DNA of 64,000 bases from assembly GCF_902833045.1 (NCBI RefSeq), contig NZ_CADFDU010000002.1:558001-622000 (forward strand), written 5' to 3'. This document shows, piece by piece, positions 3,652 to 60,013 of this stretch; the first letter of the stretch is position 1, and the number at the start of each line of letters is the position of its first letter. Source of the stretch: Burkholderia sp. BCC0322 (GTDB lineage Bacteria; Pseudomonadota; Gammaproteobacteria; Burkholderiales; Burkholderiaceae). The notes under the pieces are model-generated. The model saw nothing but the letters and a program-made list of their open reading frames with translations. It did not search any database and was not told the DNA's origin. A program made the position numbers and the translations under genes.

Positions 3652-4467
3652 ATGGCAAAAATCATCGTGGTGACCTCGGGCAAGGGCGGCGTGGGCAAGA
3701 CGACGACGAGCGCGAGCTTTGCGTCCGGTCTCGCGCTGCGCGGCCACAAGACGGCCGTCATCGACTTCGACGTCGGCCTGCGCAACCTCGATCTCATCAT
3801 GGGCTGCGAGCGCCGCGTGGTGTACGACCTCGTGAACGTGATCCAGGGCGAAGCGAACCTGAACCAGGCGCTGATCAAGGACAAGAAGTGCGAGAACCTG
3901 TTCATCCTGCCGGCATCGCAGACGCGCGACAAGGATGCGCTGACGCGCGAAGGTGTCGAGAAGGTGCTGAACGACCTCGCCGCGATGGATTTCGAATACA
4001 TCGTCTGCGATTCGCCGGCCGGTATCGAGGCAGGTGCGCTGCACGCGATGTACTTCGCCGATGAAGCGCTGATCGTCACGAACCCGGAAGTGTCGTCGGT
4101 GCGTGACTCGGATCGCATTCTCGGCATCCTGTCGTCGAAGACGAAGCGCGCGACCGAAGGCAAGGATCCGATCAAGGAGCACCTGCTGATCACGCGCTAC
4201 AGCCCGAAGCGCGTCAGCGAAGGCGAGATGCTGTCGCTCGAGGACATCAGCGAGATCCTGCGCATCAAGCTGATCGGCGTGGTGCCCGAGTCGGAAGCCG
4301 TGCTGCATGCATCGAACCAGGGTCTGCCGGCCGTGCATATCGACGGCACCGACGTTGCGGAAGCGTACAAGGACGTCGTCGCGCGTTTCCTCGGCGAAGA
4401 CAAGCCGCTGCGCTTCACCGATTACCAGAAGCCGGGCCTGCTGCAGCGCCTCTTCGGCAGCAAGTAA
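3652..4467 (+). CDS. minD: Septum site-determining protein MinD (membrane ATPase)
   Basis: ParA/MinD-family ATPase that dimerises on the inner membrane with ATP, recruits MinC and is released by MinE, giving pole-to-pole oscillation. The deviant Walker A motif SGKGGVGKTT lies at residues 9-18, and a switch/Walker B region at CDSPAGIEAGA. The C-terminus (GLLQRLFGSK) is the amphipathic membrane-targeting helix. Length 271 is normal for the family. It is 12 bases upstream of minE, with which it is surely cotranscribed. Confidence 0.98.
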   Translation: MAKIIVVTSGKGGVGKTTTSASFASGLALRGHKTAVIDFDVGLRNLDLIMGCERRVVYDLVNVIQGEANLNQALIKDKKCENLFILPASQTRDKDALTREGVEKVLNDLAAMDFEYIVCDSPAGIEAGALHAMYFADEALIVTNPEVSSVRDSDRILGILSSKTKRATEGKDPIKEHLLITRYSPKRVSEGEMLSLEDISEILRIKLIGVVPESEAVLHASNQGLPAVHIDGTDVAEAYKDVVARFLGEDKPLRFTDYQKPGLLQRLFGSK

Positions 4468-19308: not shown

Positions 19309-19385
19309 TGGCGCGGCTGGCAGGATTCGAACCCACGACCCCTTGGTTCGTAGCCAAGTACTCTATCCAACTGAGCTACAGCCGC
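19309..19385 (-). tRNA. tRNA-Arg(ACG), copy 3 in transcription order
   Basis: 77 bases with encoded CCA. Acceptor GCGGCTG / CAGCCGC; anticodon loop CTACGAA gives ACG, expected to be deaminated to ICG and to read CGU/CGC/CGA; T-loop TTCGAAT. Identical to the two copies upstream. Terminator at 19271-19306. Confidence 0.97.
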
Positions 19386-19445
19386 ACGCAAAACGGTACT
19401 GCTTGACTGTCGGAACCTTCTGCGATGGGAAGGCCCCCAAAAAAG

Positions 19446-19522
19446 TGGCGCGGCTGGCAGGATTCGAACCCACGACCCCTTGGTTCGTAGCCAAGTACTC
19501 TATCCAACTGAGCTACAGCCGC
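19446..19522 (-). tRNA. tRNA-Arg(ACG), middle copy
   Basis: Base-for-base identical to its neighbours over all 77 positions. The spacer to the next copy carries an imperfect GGCCTTCC/GGAAGG-type hairpin, probably a processing structure in the polycistronic tRNA precursor. Confidence 0.97.
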
Positions 19523-19588
19523 ACGCAAAACAAAACTTCTACTGCTTCGAACTGAAAGGGCCTTCGGTTCCGAAGGCCCTCGAAAAAG

Positions 19589-19665
19589 TGGCGCGGCTGG
19601 CAGGATTCGAACCCACGACCCCTTGGTTCGTAGCCAAGTACTCTATCCAACTGAGCTACAGCCGC
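19589..19665 (-). tRNA. tRNA-Arg(ACG), first copy in transcription order
   Basis: Identical to the other two copies. A TATAAT box lies 14 bases before its 5' end. Downstream, the spacer at about 19554-19582 forms a perfect hairpin (GAGGGCCTTCGG-AACC-GAAGGCCCTTTC) before the middle copy. Confidence 0.97.
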
Positions 19666-20441: not shown

Positions 20442-21587
20442 TTAGAAGCGGTGGCGCATGCCGGCCGTGACCGCGATCTGCTTGTTGGTCGATGATGCGG
20501 CGCCCAGCCCGTTGATATTGGCGCCGAGGTCGAGGCCGTCGTTGTTGACCTTCTGGAACTCGCCCTGCAGGTAGACATCGGTGCGCTTCGACAGTGCATA
20601 GTCCGCTTGCAGGTTGAACTGGTGCCAGGTCGGCTTGTCGCCGGCCAGGCGGCCCTGCGTATACGTGTAGGAGCCGGCGAGCGACAGCGCCGGTGTCAGC
20701 GCGTAGCGTCCGTTGAGTTCGTAGTTGCTGAAGCGCGCGGTTCCGCCGAGGCCCGTGATGCCGCCGGACACGCCGGACTGCCCCGCGCTGATTGCCCGGA
20801 TGCCGGTCAGGCGCGTTTGTGTGAACACGAAGCCGACCGTGGCCGGGCCGAAACCGTAATTCAGGCCGGCGCCCCAGGTGCGCTGCACGCGCGATGCGAA
20901 GGTCCAGTCGCCGGTCACTGCGCCCGGATCGGTCGCTGCCTGCGCGAGTGCGTTCACGTCGCTGTTCAGCTGCAAGTAGGCCGCGGCGAAGTTGAAGCCC
21001 AGGTAGCTGTACGACACGCCGCCGCTATAGGCGCGGTTGTTCGCGAAAGCGGTCGAGTTCGAGAACCCGTACAACGCACCGAACTTGAGGCCGCCGTAGT
21101 TCGCGCTCTGATACTTGACCGAGTTGTTGATCCGGAACGAGTTGTTCAGGTTGTCGTTGTCGAACGGGTGGGCGAACTGGGTGCCGCCGTACTGGGTGCC
21201 GGTCAGCGACAGCGGCCCGAGATAGTCGACGACGCTGTCGTACTGCCGGCCCAGCGTCAGCGACCCGTAGCTGTCGTTGGCGAGGCCGACAAATGCTTGC
21301 CGGCCGAATTCCCGGCCGTTCTGCTTCAGCGCGCCGTTATTGATGCCGAAACCATTTTCCAGCGTGAAGATCGCTTTCAGGCCGCCGCCGAGATCTTCAG
21401 TGCCACGCAAGCCCCAGCGGCTGCCGTTGACCGAACCGCTTGTTTCCTGCCAGGCGCTATGGCCGTGCTGATTGTTCGTGTAGGTGATGCCTGCGTCGAT
21501 CAAGCCATATAGCGTCACGCTGCTTTGGGCGTGAGCTGCCGTAACGAATACCCCCGACAACGCGGTGACGATCAGGGTTTTTTTCAT
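20442..21587 (-). CDS. Gram-negative general porin (beta-proteobacterial type)
   Basis: Outer-membrane trimeric diffusion channel. Signal peptide MKKTLIVTALSGVFVTAAHA, then QSSVTLYGLIDAGITYTNN, the classic start of Burkholderia/Neisseria-type porins. Further signatures: SRWGLRGTEDLGGGLKAIFTLENGF, GRQAFVGL, LGRQYD, and the C-terminal strand TAGMRHRF ending in Phe for BAM recognition. 381 residues. An inverted repeat lies 95 bases upstream of the start. It is one of what are usually many such paralogues, so no specific symbol is given. Confidence 0.95.
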   Translation of the reverse strand: MKKTLIVTALSGVFVTAAHAQSSVTLYGLIDAGITYTNNQHGHSAWQETSGSVNGSRWGLRGTEDLGGGLKAIFTLENGFGINNGALKQNGREFGRQAFVGLANDSYGSLTLGRQYDSVVDYLGPLSLTGTQYGGTQFAHPFDNDNLNNSFRINNSVKYQSANYGGLKFGALYGFSNSTAFANNRAYSGGVSYSYLGFNFAAAYLQLNSDVNALAQAATDPGAVTGDWTFASRVQRTWGAGLNYGFGPATVGFVFTQTRLTGIRAISAGQSGVSGGITGLGGTARFSNYELNGRYALTPALSLAGSYTYTQGRLAGDKPTWHQFNLQADYALSKRTDVYLQGEFQKVNNDGLDLGANINGLGAASSTNKQIAVTAGMRHRF

Positions 21588-21973
21588 GGATCTGTCTCCA
21601 AACAGGATGATATCGATCGAACCTGCTGCGGACCGGCATGTTTTGCTTGACGTTGCGGCCGGTCCGGCAGAGCGGCGGTGCGCTTATCAATAAGCCATCT
21701 GCAGTGTACGGAGTGCGTGGAGTGGGGGAGGGATCCGCTTTAAGCAATAATATATTTTGTAATCCGCAAAGATCGATGGGGCAGCGCAAACGATTGTCCA
21801 TCAAGGGTTTGCGGCGGTGCAGCGAAGAAAAATGGCGATCAGGAGTCCGTAATGGGCGTTGCGCGATCGCGACAGGCAGTCAGCAGCAGACGGGGATGGT
21901 CATAGTCCGATTATTGACACATCGGCAATAGAGGTTTGTGTGGAGCATAACTAATGAAAGGTTGTTCTCTCGC
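21588..21973. other. 386-base intergenic region upstream of the porin
   Basis: AT-richer than its surroundings. It holds the porin promoter region (AT-rich TAATATATTTTG near 21745-21757), an inverted repeat at 21682-21695, and upstream sequence of the putative small RNA, including an orphan TTGACA at 21914-21919. No credible ORF. Confidence 0.5.
21682..21695. repeat. Inverted repeat in the porin leader/promoter
   Basis: GCTTAT-CA-ATAAGC: two perfect 6-base arms around a 2-base centre, 95 bases upstream of the porin start. The size and AT-rich core suit a dimeric regulator site, but it could also be a small RNA hairpin if within the leader. Confidence 0.45.
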
Positions 21974-21979
21974 TATACT
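21974..21979 (+). promoter_or_regulatory. -10-like box of the putative small RNA
   Basis: TATACT on the plus strand, placed so that transcription would begin at about 21984-21987, immediately at the first stem-loop. The -35 region is not a good match, so expression may need an activator or another sigma factor. Confidence 0.5.
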
Positions 21980-21983
21980 GCGA

Positions 21984-22070
21984 TCTCTGCTTTCCGAAGC
22001 AGACTTTTTCGTTGACGGAAAAGATCTCCAAACCTTTGTCGGCGCGACTTCCCAGTCGCGCTTTTTTTTT
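21984..22070 (+). ncRNA. Putative trans-acting small RNA, about 87 nt
   Basis: No open reading frame, but dense RNA structure. Stem-loop 1 at 21986-22003: TCTGCTT-TCCG-AAGCAGA, a perfect 7-bp stem. Stem-loop 2 at 22004-22023: CTTTTTCG-TTGA-CGGAAAAG, 8 bp including one G-U. An unpaired linker at 22024-22041 contains ATCTCCAAACC, whose CUCC could pair with Shine-Dalgarno sequences. Stem-loop 3 is an intrinsic terminator (22042-22070) with nine T. The terminator works only on the plus strand, and there is no plus-strand gene upstream to need it. This is the layout of Hfq-dependent regulators. I do not recognise it as a named RNA family; existence and targets are inference. Confidence 0.65.
22042..22070 (+). 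terminator. Strong intrinsic terminator of the putative small RNA
   Basis: GCGCGACT-TCCC-AGTCGCGC, a perfect 8-bp stem followed by nine consecutive T. The opposite strand has no T tract, so it is not the terminator of the minus-strand gene at 22089. Confidence 0.9.
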
Positions 22071-22088
22071 GCCCCGTCTGTCCGCGTG

Positions 22089-22361
22089 CTATTGCGGGAA
22101 CGGGCGCCGCTTGCGCTTGGCCGCAGGCGCGGCCTCCGTGGCTTCGTTGGGCGGCGGCGTGTATGTCCAGTCTTCCATCACGTAGTGACGGGCATCGAGC
22201 GGCGACGAGAGCAGGTTCTGCCAGTGATCGCCGTGCCAGGTCGTATCGAATTCGGTGTCGCACGGCGCTTCGCGCGAGGATGCGGACTCGAGCAGGGCGC
22301 GGGACTTGCGGCGTACGCGTCCGAGCCGGCTCGCGAAGCGCTTGATTCCGTCCAGCCACAT
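22089..22361 (-). CDS. Small protein of unknown function (90 aa)
   Basis: 90 residues starting MWLDGIKRFASRLGRVRRKSR: a basic amphipathic N-terminus, then an acidic/aromatic middle (DTTWHGDHWQNLLSSP, YVMEDWTYTPPP) and a basic tail KRKRRPFPQ. No signal peptide or membrane helix. GGAAGGAGAAGG precedes the ATG, a strong ribosome site that decides this start over longer frames. Its 3' end faces the putative small RNA terminator. Family not recognised. Confidence 0.65.
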   Translation of the reverse strand: MWLDGIKRFASRLGRVRRKSRALLESASSREAPCDTEFDTTWHGDHWQNLLSSPLDARHYVMEDWTYTPPPNEATEAAPAAKRKRRPFPQ

Positions 22362-22608
22362 GACCTTCTCCTTCCTTCCGACGTCATGTGAGCATCGCAA
22401 GATCCCCGGATTTCCGCAACCCGGAAAAAACCCGAGGATTTTACCGATCAGATTTGTCCCCGGTAGGAATTTCATGACTGAAAATGCCTGGACTATGATC
22501 CCGGTAATATTGACAGGTTTTTGATGCGAATCAATTAATAAAAAGCGATGGTGTACCGATTCCAATGGTATTAGCGCTTTTTTGATAAAACGATCGTCAA
22601 AAATTTCC

Positions 22609-22638
22609 TTGACGCACCCGGATTGTCCCATTTATAAA
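22609..22638 (+). promoter_or_regulatory. Sigma-70 promoter of cspA
   Basis: TTGACG (22609-22614), 18-base spacer, TATAAA (22633-22638). It predicts a start near 22645 and a leader of about 110 bases before the cspA ATG. Confidence 0.65.
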
Positions 22639-22644
22639 GTCAGC

Positions 22645-22754
22645 ACACCGTCCTCGGGCGGCGTGCTGGTGCGGGTGCTGGCGCAATGTTTCGGGATTTC
22701 GGGAAACGGCTATAAAAATAGCTTTTTTGATCTAATCGAGTGGGGAACGAAGAC
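22645..22754 (+). promoter_or_regulatory. Structured cspA 5' leader with a terminator-like hairpin
   Basis: Three successive potential hairpins: CAGCAC.CCG / CGG.GTGCTG near 22640-22667; GTTTC / GAAAC at 22688-22706; and GCTAT-AAAA-ATAGC (22709-22722) followed directly by six T (22723-22728). The last has the form of a weak AT-rich intrinsic terminator only 26 bases before the start codon. Long structured leaders are known to give cold-dependent expression of csp mRNAs; the attenuator-like element is my inference. Confidence 0.5.
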
Positions 22755-22958
22755 ATGGATACCGGTATCGTGAAATGGTTTAACGATGCTAAAGGTTTCG
22801 GCTTTATTACGTCGGACAATGGCGGTGAAGATTTGTTTGCACACTTTTCCGAAATCAAGATGGACGGCTTCAAGACGCTGAAGGAAAACCAGCGTGTTTC
22901 GTTCGACGTGAAAGTCGGGCCGAAAGGCAAGCAGGCAGCGAATATCCAGGCGGTCTGA
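22755..22958 (+). CDS. cspA: Cold-shock protein, CspA family
   Basis: 67-residue OB-fold RNA/DNA-binding protein (RNA chaperone). RNP1-like KGFGFITSD and RNP2-like DLFAHFSEI are intact, preceded by the canonical [12 protein letters not shown] start; the ATG at 22755 is chosen for this reason over a longer frame from 22740. Preceded by a long leader and followed by a clean terminator, so monocistronic. Bacteria usually have several paralogues, so whether this one is cold-inducible is not shown. Confidence 0.95.
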
Positions 22959-22985
22959 CGCGCCACGCATTGCCGATCACGTCCG

Positions 22986-23010
22986 GCCCCCGCATTGCGG
23001 GGGCTTTTTA
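22986..23010 (+). terminator. Intrinsic terminator of cspA
   Basis: GCCCCCGC-ATT-GCGGGGGC (8-bp perfect stem) followed by TTTTTATTTT, 28 bases after the stop codon. Confidence 0.95.
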
Positions 23011-35729: not shown

Positions 35730-35872
35730 AACCATCGGTCTCGCCAGGCCTAGGTGGCTGCGCCCGCCATGGCCGTACGGCCAAGTCTGTTGACGGACGC
35801 CTCCGTCACGATGCGCGCCGGGGGCGCGGGACATCGAGCGGAGCGGCTACTCCCCAATGAGGGGCGAATTCT
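35730..35872 (-). promoter_or_regulatory. yybP-ykoY manganese riboswitch
   Basis: On the minus strand, in order: TTGGGGAGTAGCCG (conserved GGGGAGUAG at 35848-35856), then after a variable stem CGTCAACAGACTTGGCC (the conserved CAACAxACU loop), then GGCGAGACCG near 35738-35745 closing the element. These are the landmark sequences of the Mn2+-sensing yybP-ykoY family. It sits about 80 bases before the start codon of a GDT1-family exporter, so it is predicted to switch the gene on when Mn2+ is high. Confidence 0.85.
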
Positions 35873-59643: not shown

Positions 59644-60013
59644 TGGTGGAGGCGGCGGGAATCGAACCCGCGTCCAGAAGCGCTCCACGACTAGTTCTAC
59701 ATGTTTAGTTCAGTCATTTGATTTAACCGCAGCGACGCGGACGAACACGCTGCACTACGGCGATTCGCTAGGTTTTCGACCCTGGCGTCGCGACGCCGAC
59801 AGGGCTTAACTGACGTAAATGACCTCTGGCGGTATTGCTACCGGTCTTGCGACACTAGCCCGTCAGTGAACTAGGCAGAGGACGGCGGCCCTTAGGCTGC
59901 CAGTGCGAACGTATCGTCGTTTGCAGTTACGATTTTCCCATTGATTAACGAGGTGACGGGTCCTCGACATGCCCTAGCCGCTTCACAACCCCTGTCGAAA
60001 CCAGGTCGCCCCC
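59644..60013 (-). ncRNA. ssrA: tmRNA (transfer-messenger RNA, SsrA)
   Basis: 370-base RNA that rescues stalled ribosomes by tagging nascent chains for proteolysis. 5' GGGGGCG pairs with 3' CGCCTCC over 7 bp, with encoded CCA (59644-59646); T-loop TTCGATTCC. The tag reading frame is at 59892-59924 and encodes ANDDTFALAA then stop; the resume codon GCA is intact and the tag ends in the typical ALAA. Own terminator at 59590-59623. Confidence 0.97.

Follow-up and report, generated by a model that had tools for sequence, protein, structure and literature searches.

A short interval between a minus-strand porin gene and a convergent minus-strand gene in the window (the whole 64,000-nucleotide stretch of DNA analysed here) carries two adjoining hairpins followed by a terminator, and raises two questions: whether it encodes an RNA of its own, and which gene such an RNA would regulate. 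The original prediction, made from the letters alone, had proposed a small RNA, with the adjacent porin as a suggested target.

The interval encodes the small RNA NcS25

The locus and its neighbours are arranged as follows:

20442..21587, minus strand: adjacent porin (Porin_4; Pfam PF13609, E 5.3e-53), counterpart of BCAL3008 by position
21986..22070, plus strand: NcS25 small RNA (RF02869, ncS025)
22089..22361, minus strand: convergent hypothetical protein of 90 aa, without Pfam match
22740..22958, plus strand: cold-shock protein CspA-like ORF

The interval 21986-22070 on the plus strand is a small RNA gene that has already been catalogued and characterised as NcS25. In a search with Rfam cmscan, the model RF02869 (Burkholderia sRNA 25) scored 114.2 bits on it (gathering score 46), with model positions 1-85 of 85 aligned, and all 85 nucleotides are identical to positions 4050-4134 of the B. 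cenocepacia NCTC13227 record L106. The window's exact 85 nt were present in 15 of 120 named loci. The sequence had initially not been recognised as belonging to any named family, a point that the Rfam search corrects; the small RNA call itself is borne out by this score and by the covarying stems of the divergent set (below), so that a working sRNA could be recognised from raw sequence. The further statement that no ORF occupies the interval does not hold for mechanically called frames, as ORFs of 145 aa (plus strand) and 128 aa (minus strand) cross the sRNA and one of 57 aa overlaps it.

Across positions 20442-23000 the window is 95.7% identical to G001 (L181), the nearest genome compared, and 94.7% identical to B. 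lata (L084), which we take to be a member of the Burkholderia cepacia complex; because of these identities we assign the window to a strain of that complex. Compared with the B. cenocepacia record L106 the same region is only 83.5% identical, whereas the RNA itself shows no difference, and the three-stem layout, the gene neighbours and the seed are also shared. The ORF at 22740..22958 (+) is presumably of the CspA family. With that assignment, the order porin, sRNA, hypothetical protein and CspA matches the one described in PMC10117139. The target porin is likely common to both strains.

Matches to RF02869 were found in 37 of 37 genomes of the same genus. Within the family, 219 of 398 genomes had one, 209 of them above the cut-off, and these represent 8 of 25 genera; none of 24 genomes from other families of the order had a match, nor did any of 14 control genomes. 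Two other families resemble the window's RNA in part. The Burkholderia sRNA ncS54 (RF02871) likewise has a GC terminator, but its match of 19.1 bits lies below the gathering score of 43 and aligns mainly the terminator; mmgR / suhB (RF00519) shares a CUCC-type stretch 5' of the terminator, but with 18.7 bits it too falls below its gathering score of 41.

NcS25 was discovered in B. cenocepacia in 2017 by dRNA-seq and a deletion-controlled Northern blot that showed an RNA of the expected size (PMC5688073), was characterised in 2023 as a repressor of the porin BCAL3473 (PMC10117139), and had these findings restated in a 2024 review (PMC10987360); all three sources are cited here from excerpts of their text. 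In the excerpted text of PMC5688073, the 84-85 nt transcript is given for B. cenocepacia only. Identity, structure and conserved pairing were computed here; the experiments that demonstrated repression of BCAL3473 were done in B. cenocepacia J2315 (PMC10117139), and for the present strain we infer the same. Taken together, we hold it to be nearly certain that this strain, close to B. lata, carries an NcS25 gene that would be transcribed from a TATACT promoter as an RNA of 84-85 nt, whose exposed linker would bind the Shine-Dalgarno sequence of the BCAL3473 counterpart, a porin gene located far away; base pairing would extend into the 5' arm of hairpin 2, across the start codon and first codons, and would block translation and lower the mRNA.

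Promoter, stems and terminator

The elements of the sRNA gene, with the evidence behind each, are:

21974..21979, plus strand: TATACT, the promoter's -10 box (positions -12 to -7 relative to the sRNA start)
21986..22003, plus strand: hairpin 1, 7 bp (fold, model, divergent alignment)
22004..22023, plus strand: hairpin 2, 8 bp including one G-U (fold, model, target pairing, divergent alignment)
22024..22040, plus strand: single-stranded linker AUCUCCAAACCUUUGUC, 17 bases, anti-Shine-Dalgarno seed (fold, conservation, target pairing)
22041..22070, plus strand: intrinsic terminator of the sRNA (scan, model, compensatory changes)

The predicted layout of adjoining 7-bp and 8-bp hairpins, an unpaired linker and a terminator with nine T was recovered by the fold and the terminator scan, with coordinates correct to within one base; the linker has 17 bases (22024-22040) rather than 18, and the terminator stem, 22041-22062, has 9 bp counting a closing G-U, with the nine T at 22062-22070. 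The predicted fold has an energy of -30.1 kcal/mol, and 3 of 200 dinucleotide shuffles fold equally well or better (z -2.68). The TATACT noted 5' of the hairpins is confirmed at 21974-21979. Among the matches listed, all 150 loci examined (L001-L150) have it at -12 to -7; these loci were selected by linker pattern or best Rfam score, and their linker conservation is thus partly a product of selection. In the part of the window that was scanned, the consensus search found no -35/-10 promoter pair.

Among close relatives the hairpins and linker are nearly invariant, and covariation is weak: in an alignment of the window with 28 of 63 distinct RNAs, chosen by eye, 3 of 24 pairs changed on both sides, a number equalled by 200 of 500 shuffles, while the 13 cells with changes on both sides were reached by none of the 500. 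Once divergent genera are included, the stems covary strongly, and the terminator too shows compensatory changes. This divergent set comprises 30 sequences, four of them second copies that score under the Rfam cut-off, and was fitted to the RF02869 model, which itself favours pairing; 20 of its 24 pairs changed on both sides and pairing is kept in 92.1% of cells, exceeding all 500 shuffles and all slid controls. In the same rows, mostly not selected by linker and counted by eye, TCTCC is kept in 27 of 30 and TCTCCAA in 24 of 30.

The terminator stem lies between the sRNA and the convergent gene, close behind the stop of the latter (18 bases separate 22070 and 22089), and PMC10117139 describes the terminator as common to both. 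The whole interval might accordingly be read as only a terminator of the minus-strand convergent gene accompanied by chance hairpins, a reading to which we attach practically no probability: the T run serves the plus strand, whereas the minus-strand reading has no T run after the stem, and the terminator scan found no minus-strand terminator at this stem. The TATACT of the 150 listed loci and the covariation of the stems also speak against it, and for the identical B. cenocepacia sequence it is refuted by the RNA of expected size seen by dRNA-seq and by deletion-controlled Northern blot (PMC5688073).

The seed probably pairs with a distant porin rather than with the neighbour

With the interval thus read as the NcS25 gene, the question becomes which porin its linker addresses. 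In B. cenocepacia, deletion of ncS25 raised BCAL3473 mRNA 83-fold in planktonic cells and 27-fold in biofilm, and repression was restored by the native RNA but not by a seed mutant; five other candidates tested there, including the adjacent porin BCAL3008, were unchanged, and the reporter effect was small (PMC10117139, excerpts). The pairing published in that report covers target positions -14 to +16, and the BCAL3473 protein has 383 aa. The word Hfq occurs four times in the excerpted text, each time in the introduction or among the references, and the excerpts of the papers cited here contain no assay of Hfq binding or dependence.

Of the 74 porin matches in G001, all but the four at the end of the list were scored for pairing with the window's RNA, which gave 70 starts; the energies include what it takes to unfold both partners. 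A porin of 383 aa, L193, about 0.52 Mb from the sRNA in that genome, ranked first of the 70 starts with -17.4 kcal/mol, pairing sRNA positions 19-47 with target positions -15 to +8 (0 being the A of ATG). Its length, position and start sequence indicate that L193 is likely the counterpart of BCAL3473. The target has TTGGAGATC as Shine-Dalgarno before ATGAAAAAGTCGC, with a 9-nt complement to the linker, and the 5' arm of hairpin 2, CUUUUUC, is complementary also to GAAAAAG at the target's first codons. The second-ranked porin of G001, L190, rests on a start codon that is probably mis-assigned. Duplex energy without folding cost did not discriminate, placing the expected target only third of 70, and accessibility was added for this reason.

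Conservation of the match was compared in 26 genomes with their own sRNA (G001 added, G322 absent). Of the 16 genomes, G001 included, whose porin relative was at least 67% identical, 15 had a target with at least 8 nt of complement to their own linker; G284, whose linker has diverged, retains a match of only 6 nt at the target. Where the best porin relative was below 67% identity, and orthology is doubtful, 4 of 10 genomes had such a complement. In G104, the best partners of the genome's own RNA did not include the porins nearest to the target; in G322 the search yielded no porin relative within its limit. As judged from these sequences, the target may have been lost, or may be another one, in G322 and in those genomes with a relative below 67% that lack the 8-nt match.

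The adjacent porin, the target first suggested, also has a Shine-Dalgarno region with a 9-nt match to the linker (GUUUGGAGA; minus-strand reading, plus-strand coordinate 21595), a match present in G001 and G017 as well. That NcS25 acts mainly on this neighbour nevertheless appears very improbable. A match of at least 8 nt was found in 2 of 25 genomes, no adjacent porin start being found in the 26th; in G001 the neighbour ranked 25th of 70, with -6.3 kcal/mol; and deletion of the sRNA left BCAL3008 unaltered (PMC10117139, excerpts). We rejected it as the main target on the published qPCR and the lack of conservation. Since the distant porin keeps the match in 15 of the 16 genomes with a relative of at least 67% identity, and the neighbour in 2 of 25, pairing with the former seems to be held by selection; this amounts to an independent check of the published target, across genera. 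The idea that the unpaired UCUCCAAAC linker serves as an anti-Shine-Dalgarno seed for a porin is supported by the rank of L193 and by the conserved complement.

The upstream region

Upstream of the promoter lies one further element:

21914..21928, unstranded: TTG-N9-CAA inverted repeat in the region that separates the divergent porin from the sRNA, 72 nt ahead of the sRNA start

Of 133 distinct upstream regions, 95 contain the repeat, usually at -72 or -73; shuffles gave a mean of 1.06 and a maximum of 5. We take it to resemble the site of a LysR-type regulator, and its sequence makes it a possible, putative site of that kind. Knockdown of the LysR-type BCAL0461 lowered BCAL3008 and left NcS25 unchanged (PMC10117139, excerpts), and the site may therefore be an element of the divergent porin gene or serve some other regulator.

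Diverged seeds and a shorter relative in Paraburkholderia

A more tentative proposal, to which we give somewhat less than even weight, is that Paraburkholderia holds a second branch of NcS25-kind RNAs, shorter and at another locus near a two-component signalling gene, with the GUCUCCAAAU linker kept, with its own promoter and stem and passing no Rfam cut-off, which might divide the porin repertoire with NcS25 or act on other targets; and, as a second part of the same proposal, that the altered seed of genome G127 (GGUCUCCGAG), with its 10-nt porin match, may have drifted together with its target.

In G127 (C18; sRNA locus L172), a single case, the NcS25 linker is changed to GGUCUCCGAG, which matches the Shine-Dalgarno region of a porin (L301) perfectly over 10 nt. 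This porin is the best of 12 scored (13 were found, one being dropped for want of a start), with only -7.2 kcal/mol; the window's RNA reached -7.4 kcal/mol on the same porin and -12.1 kcal/mol on another porin of that genome. Scoring in G104 covered 30 of 32 porins; among them L320, related to the G127 target, has an identical Shine-Dalgarno sequence though the linker of G104 differs, and the case for a joint change of seed and target is therefore weak. A drift pattern considered for genus g49, GGAGACGTC before ATGAA, occurred in 10 of 12 genomes but also in 4 of 4 of other genera, and 4 of its 17 hits were the antisense of the sRNA itself; it lends no support.

A second, weak RF02869 match was seen in 5 of 26 genomes, these five having been included because of two matches found earlier. 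One such copy, L177:1501-1562 (+), retains hairpin 1 and the terminator, lacks hairpin 2 as well as the linker, and adjoins an ORF that begins like a porin, so that it is apparently a decayed second copy of NcS25; another, L178, looks like a chance match. The shorter RNA is found at:

L180:1503-1580 (plus strand), L179:1503-1578 (minus strand), also L352-L370: NcS25-like RNA of about 76 nt, linker UCUCCAAA, genus g44

We identify g44 as Paraburkholderia because a locus from it, L151, matches the P. ginsengisoli record L031 at 100% identity. BLAST matches to the RNA, some to the terminator only, were obtained in 131 of 144 Paraburkholderia genomes, and a copy in G208 is of the same kind as L179 and L180 by BLAST and model. 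All 20 sequences of its alignment contain TGCGAGAAGTGACTCCTTCATCG and GUCUCCAAA, TATGCT stands upstream in 21 of 22 rows (two rows being one locus), and 2 of 200 shuffles fold equally well or better. Of 200 family genomes, 126 gave a hit to a model of this RNA with E no higher than 0.001, many of these matches being weak or NcS25 itself. Scores of at least 68 bits were reached in 21 genomes (19 of g44 and two of g37), the next being 54 bits in g31; the genus Burkholderia gave four weak matches, of which the two with coordinates, at about 30 bits, are NcS25. The RNA stays below every Rfam gathering score.

At both of the two loci scanned, a gene with a response-regulator receiver domain lies on one side, and two ORFs on the other side had no Pfam match. 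A search of one open-access library by NcS25 names and general terms returned no recognised report of this RNA. If it is a regulator, its mRNA targets would be complementary to GUCUCCAAAUCUUU. For the target pattern ATTTGGAGAC-N{2,10}-ATG, tried in 10 genomes and rejected, 8 of 14 hits were the antisense of the RNA itself, and 6 remain. NcS25 itself being known, this relative is the only part that we consider worth further study.

Other RNA features of the window

Three further RNA features were observed elsewhere in the window, all on the minus strand: a manganese riboswitch (yybP-ykoY, RF00080) at 35730-35867 with 61.2 bits, a tmRNA gene at 59644-60013 with 218.5 bits, and three consecutive tRNA genes with equal scores at 19312-19665, between RelA/SpoT-type and GreA/GreB-type genes.
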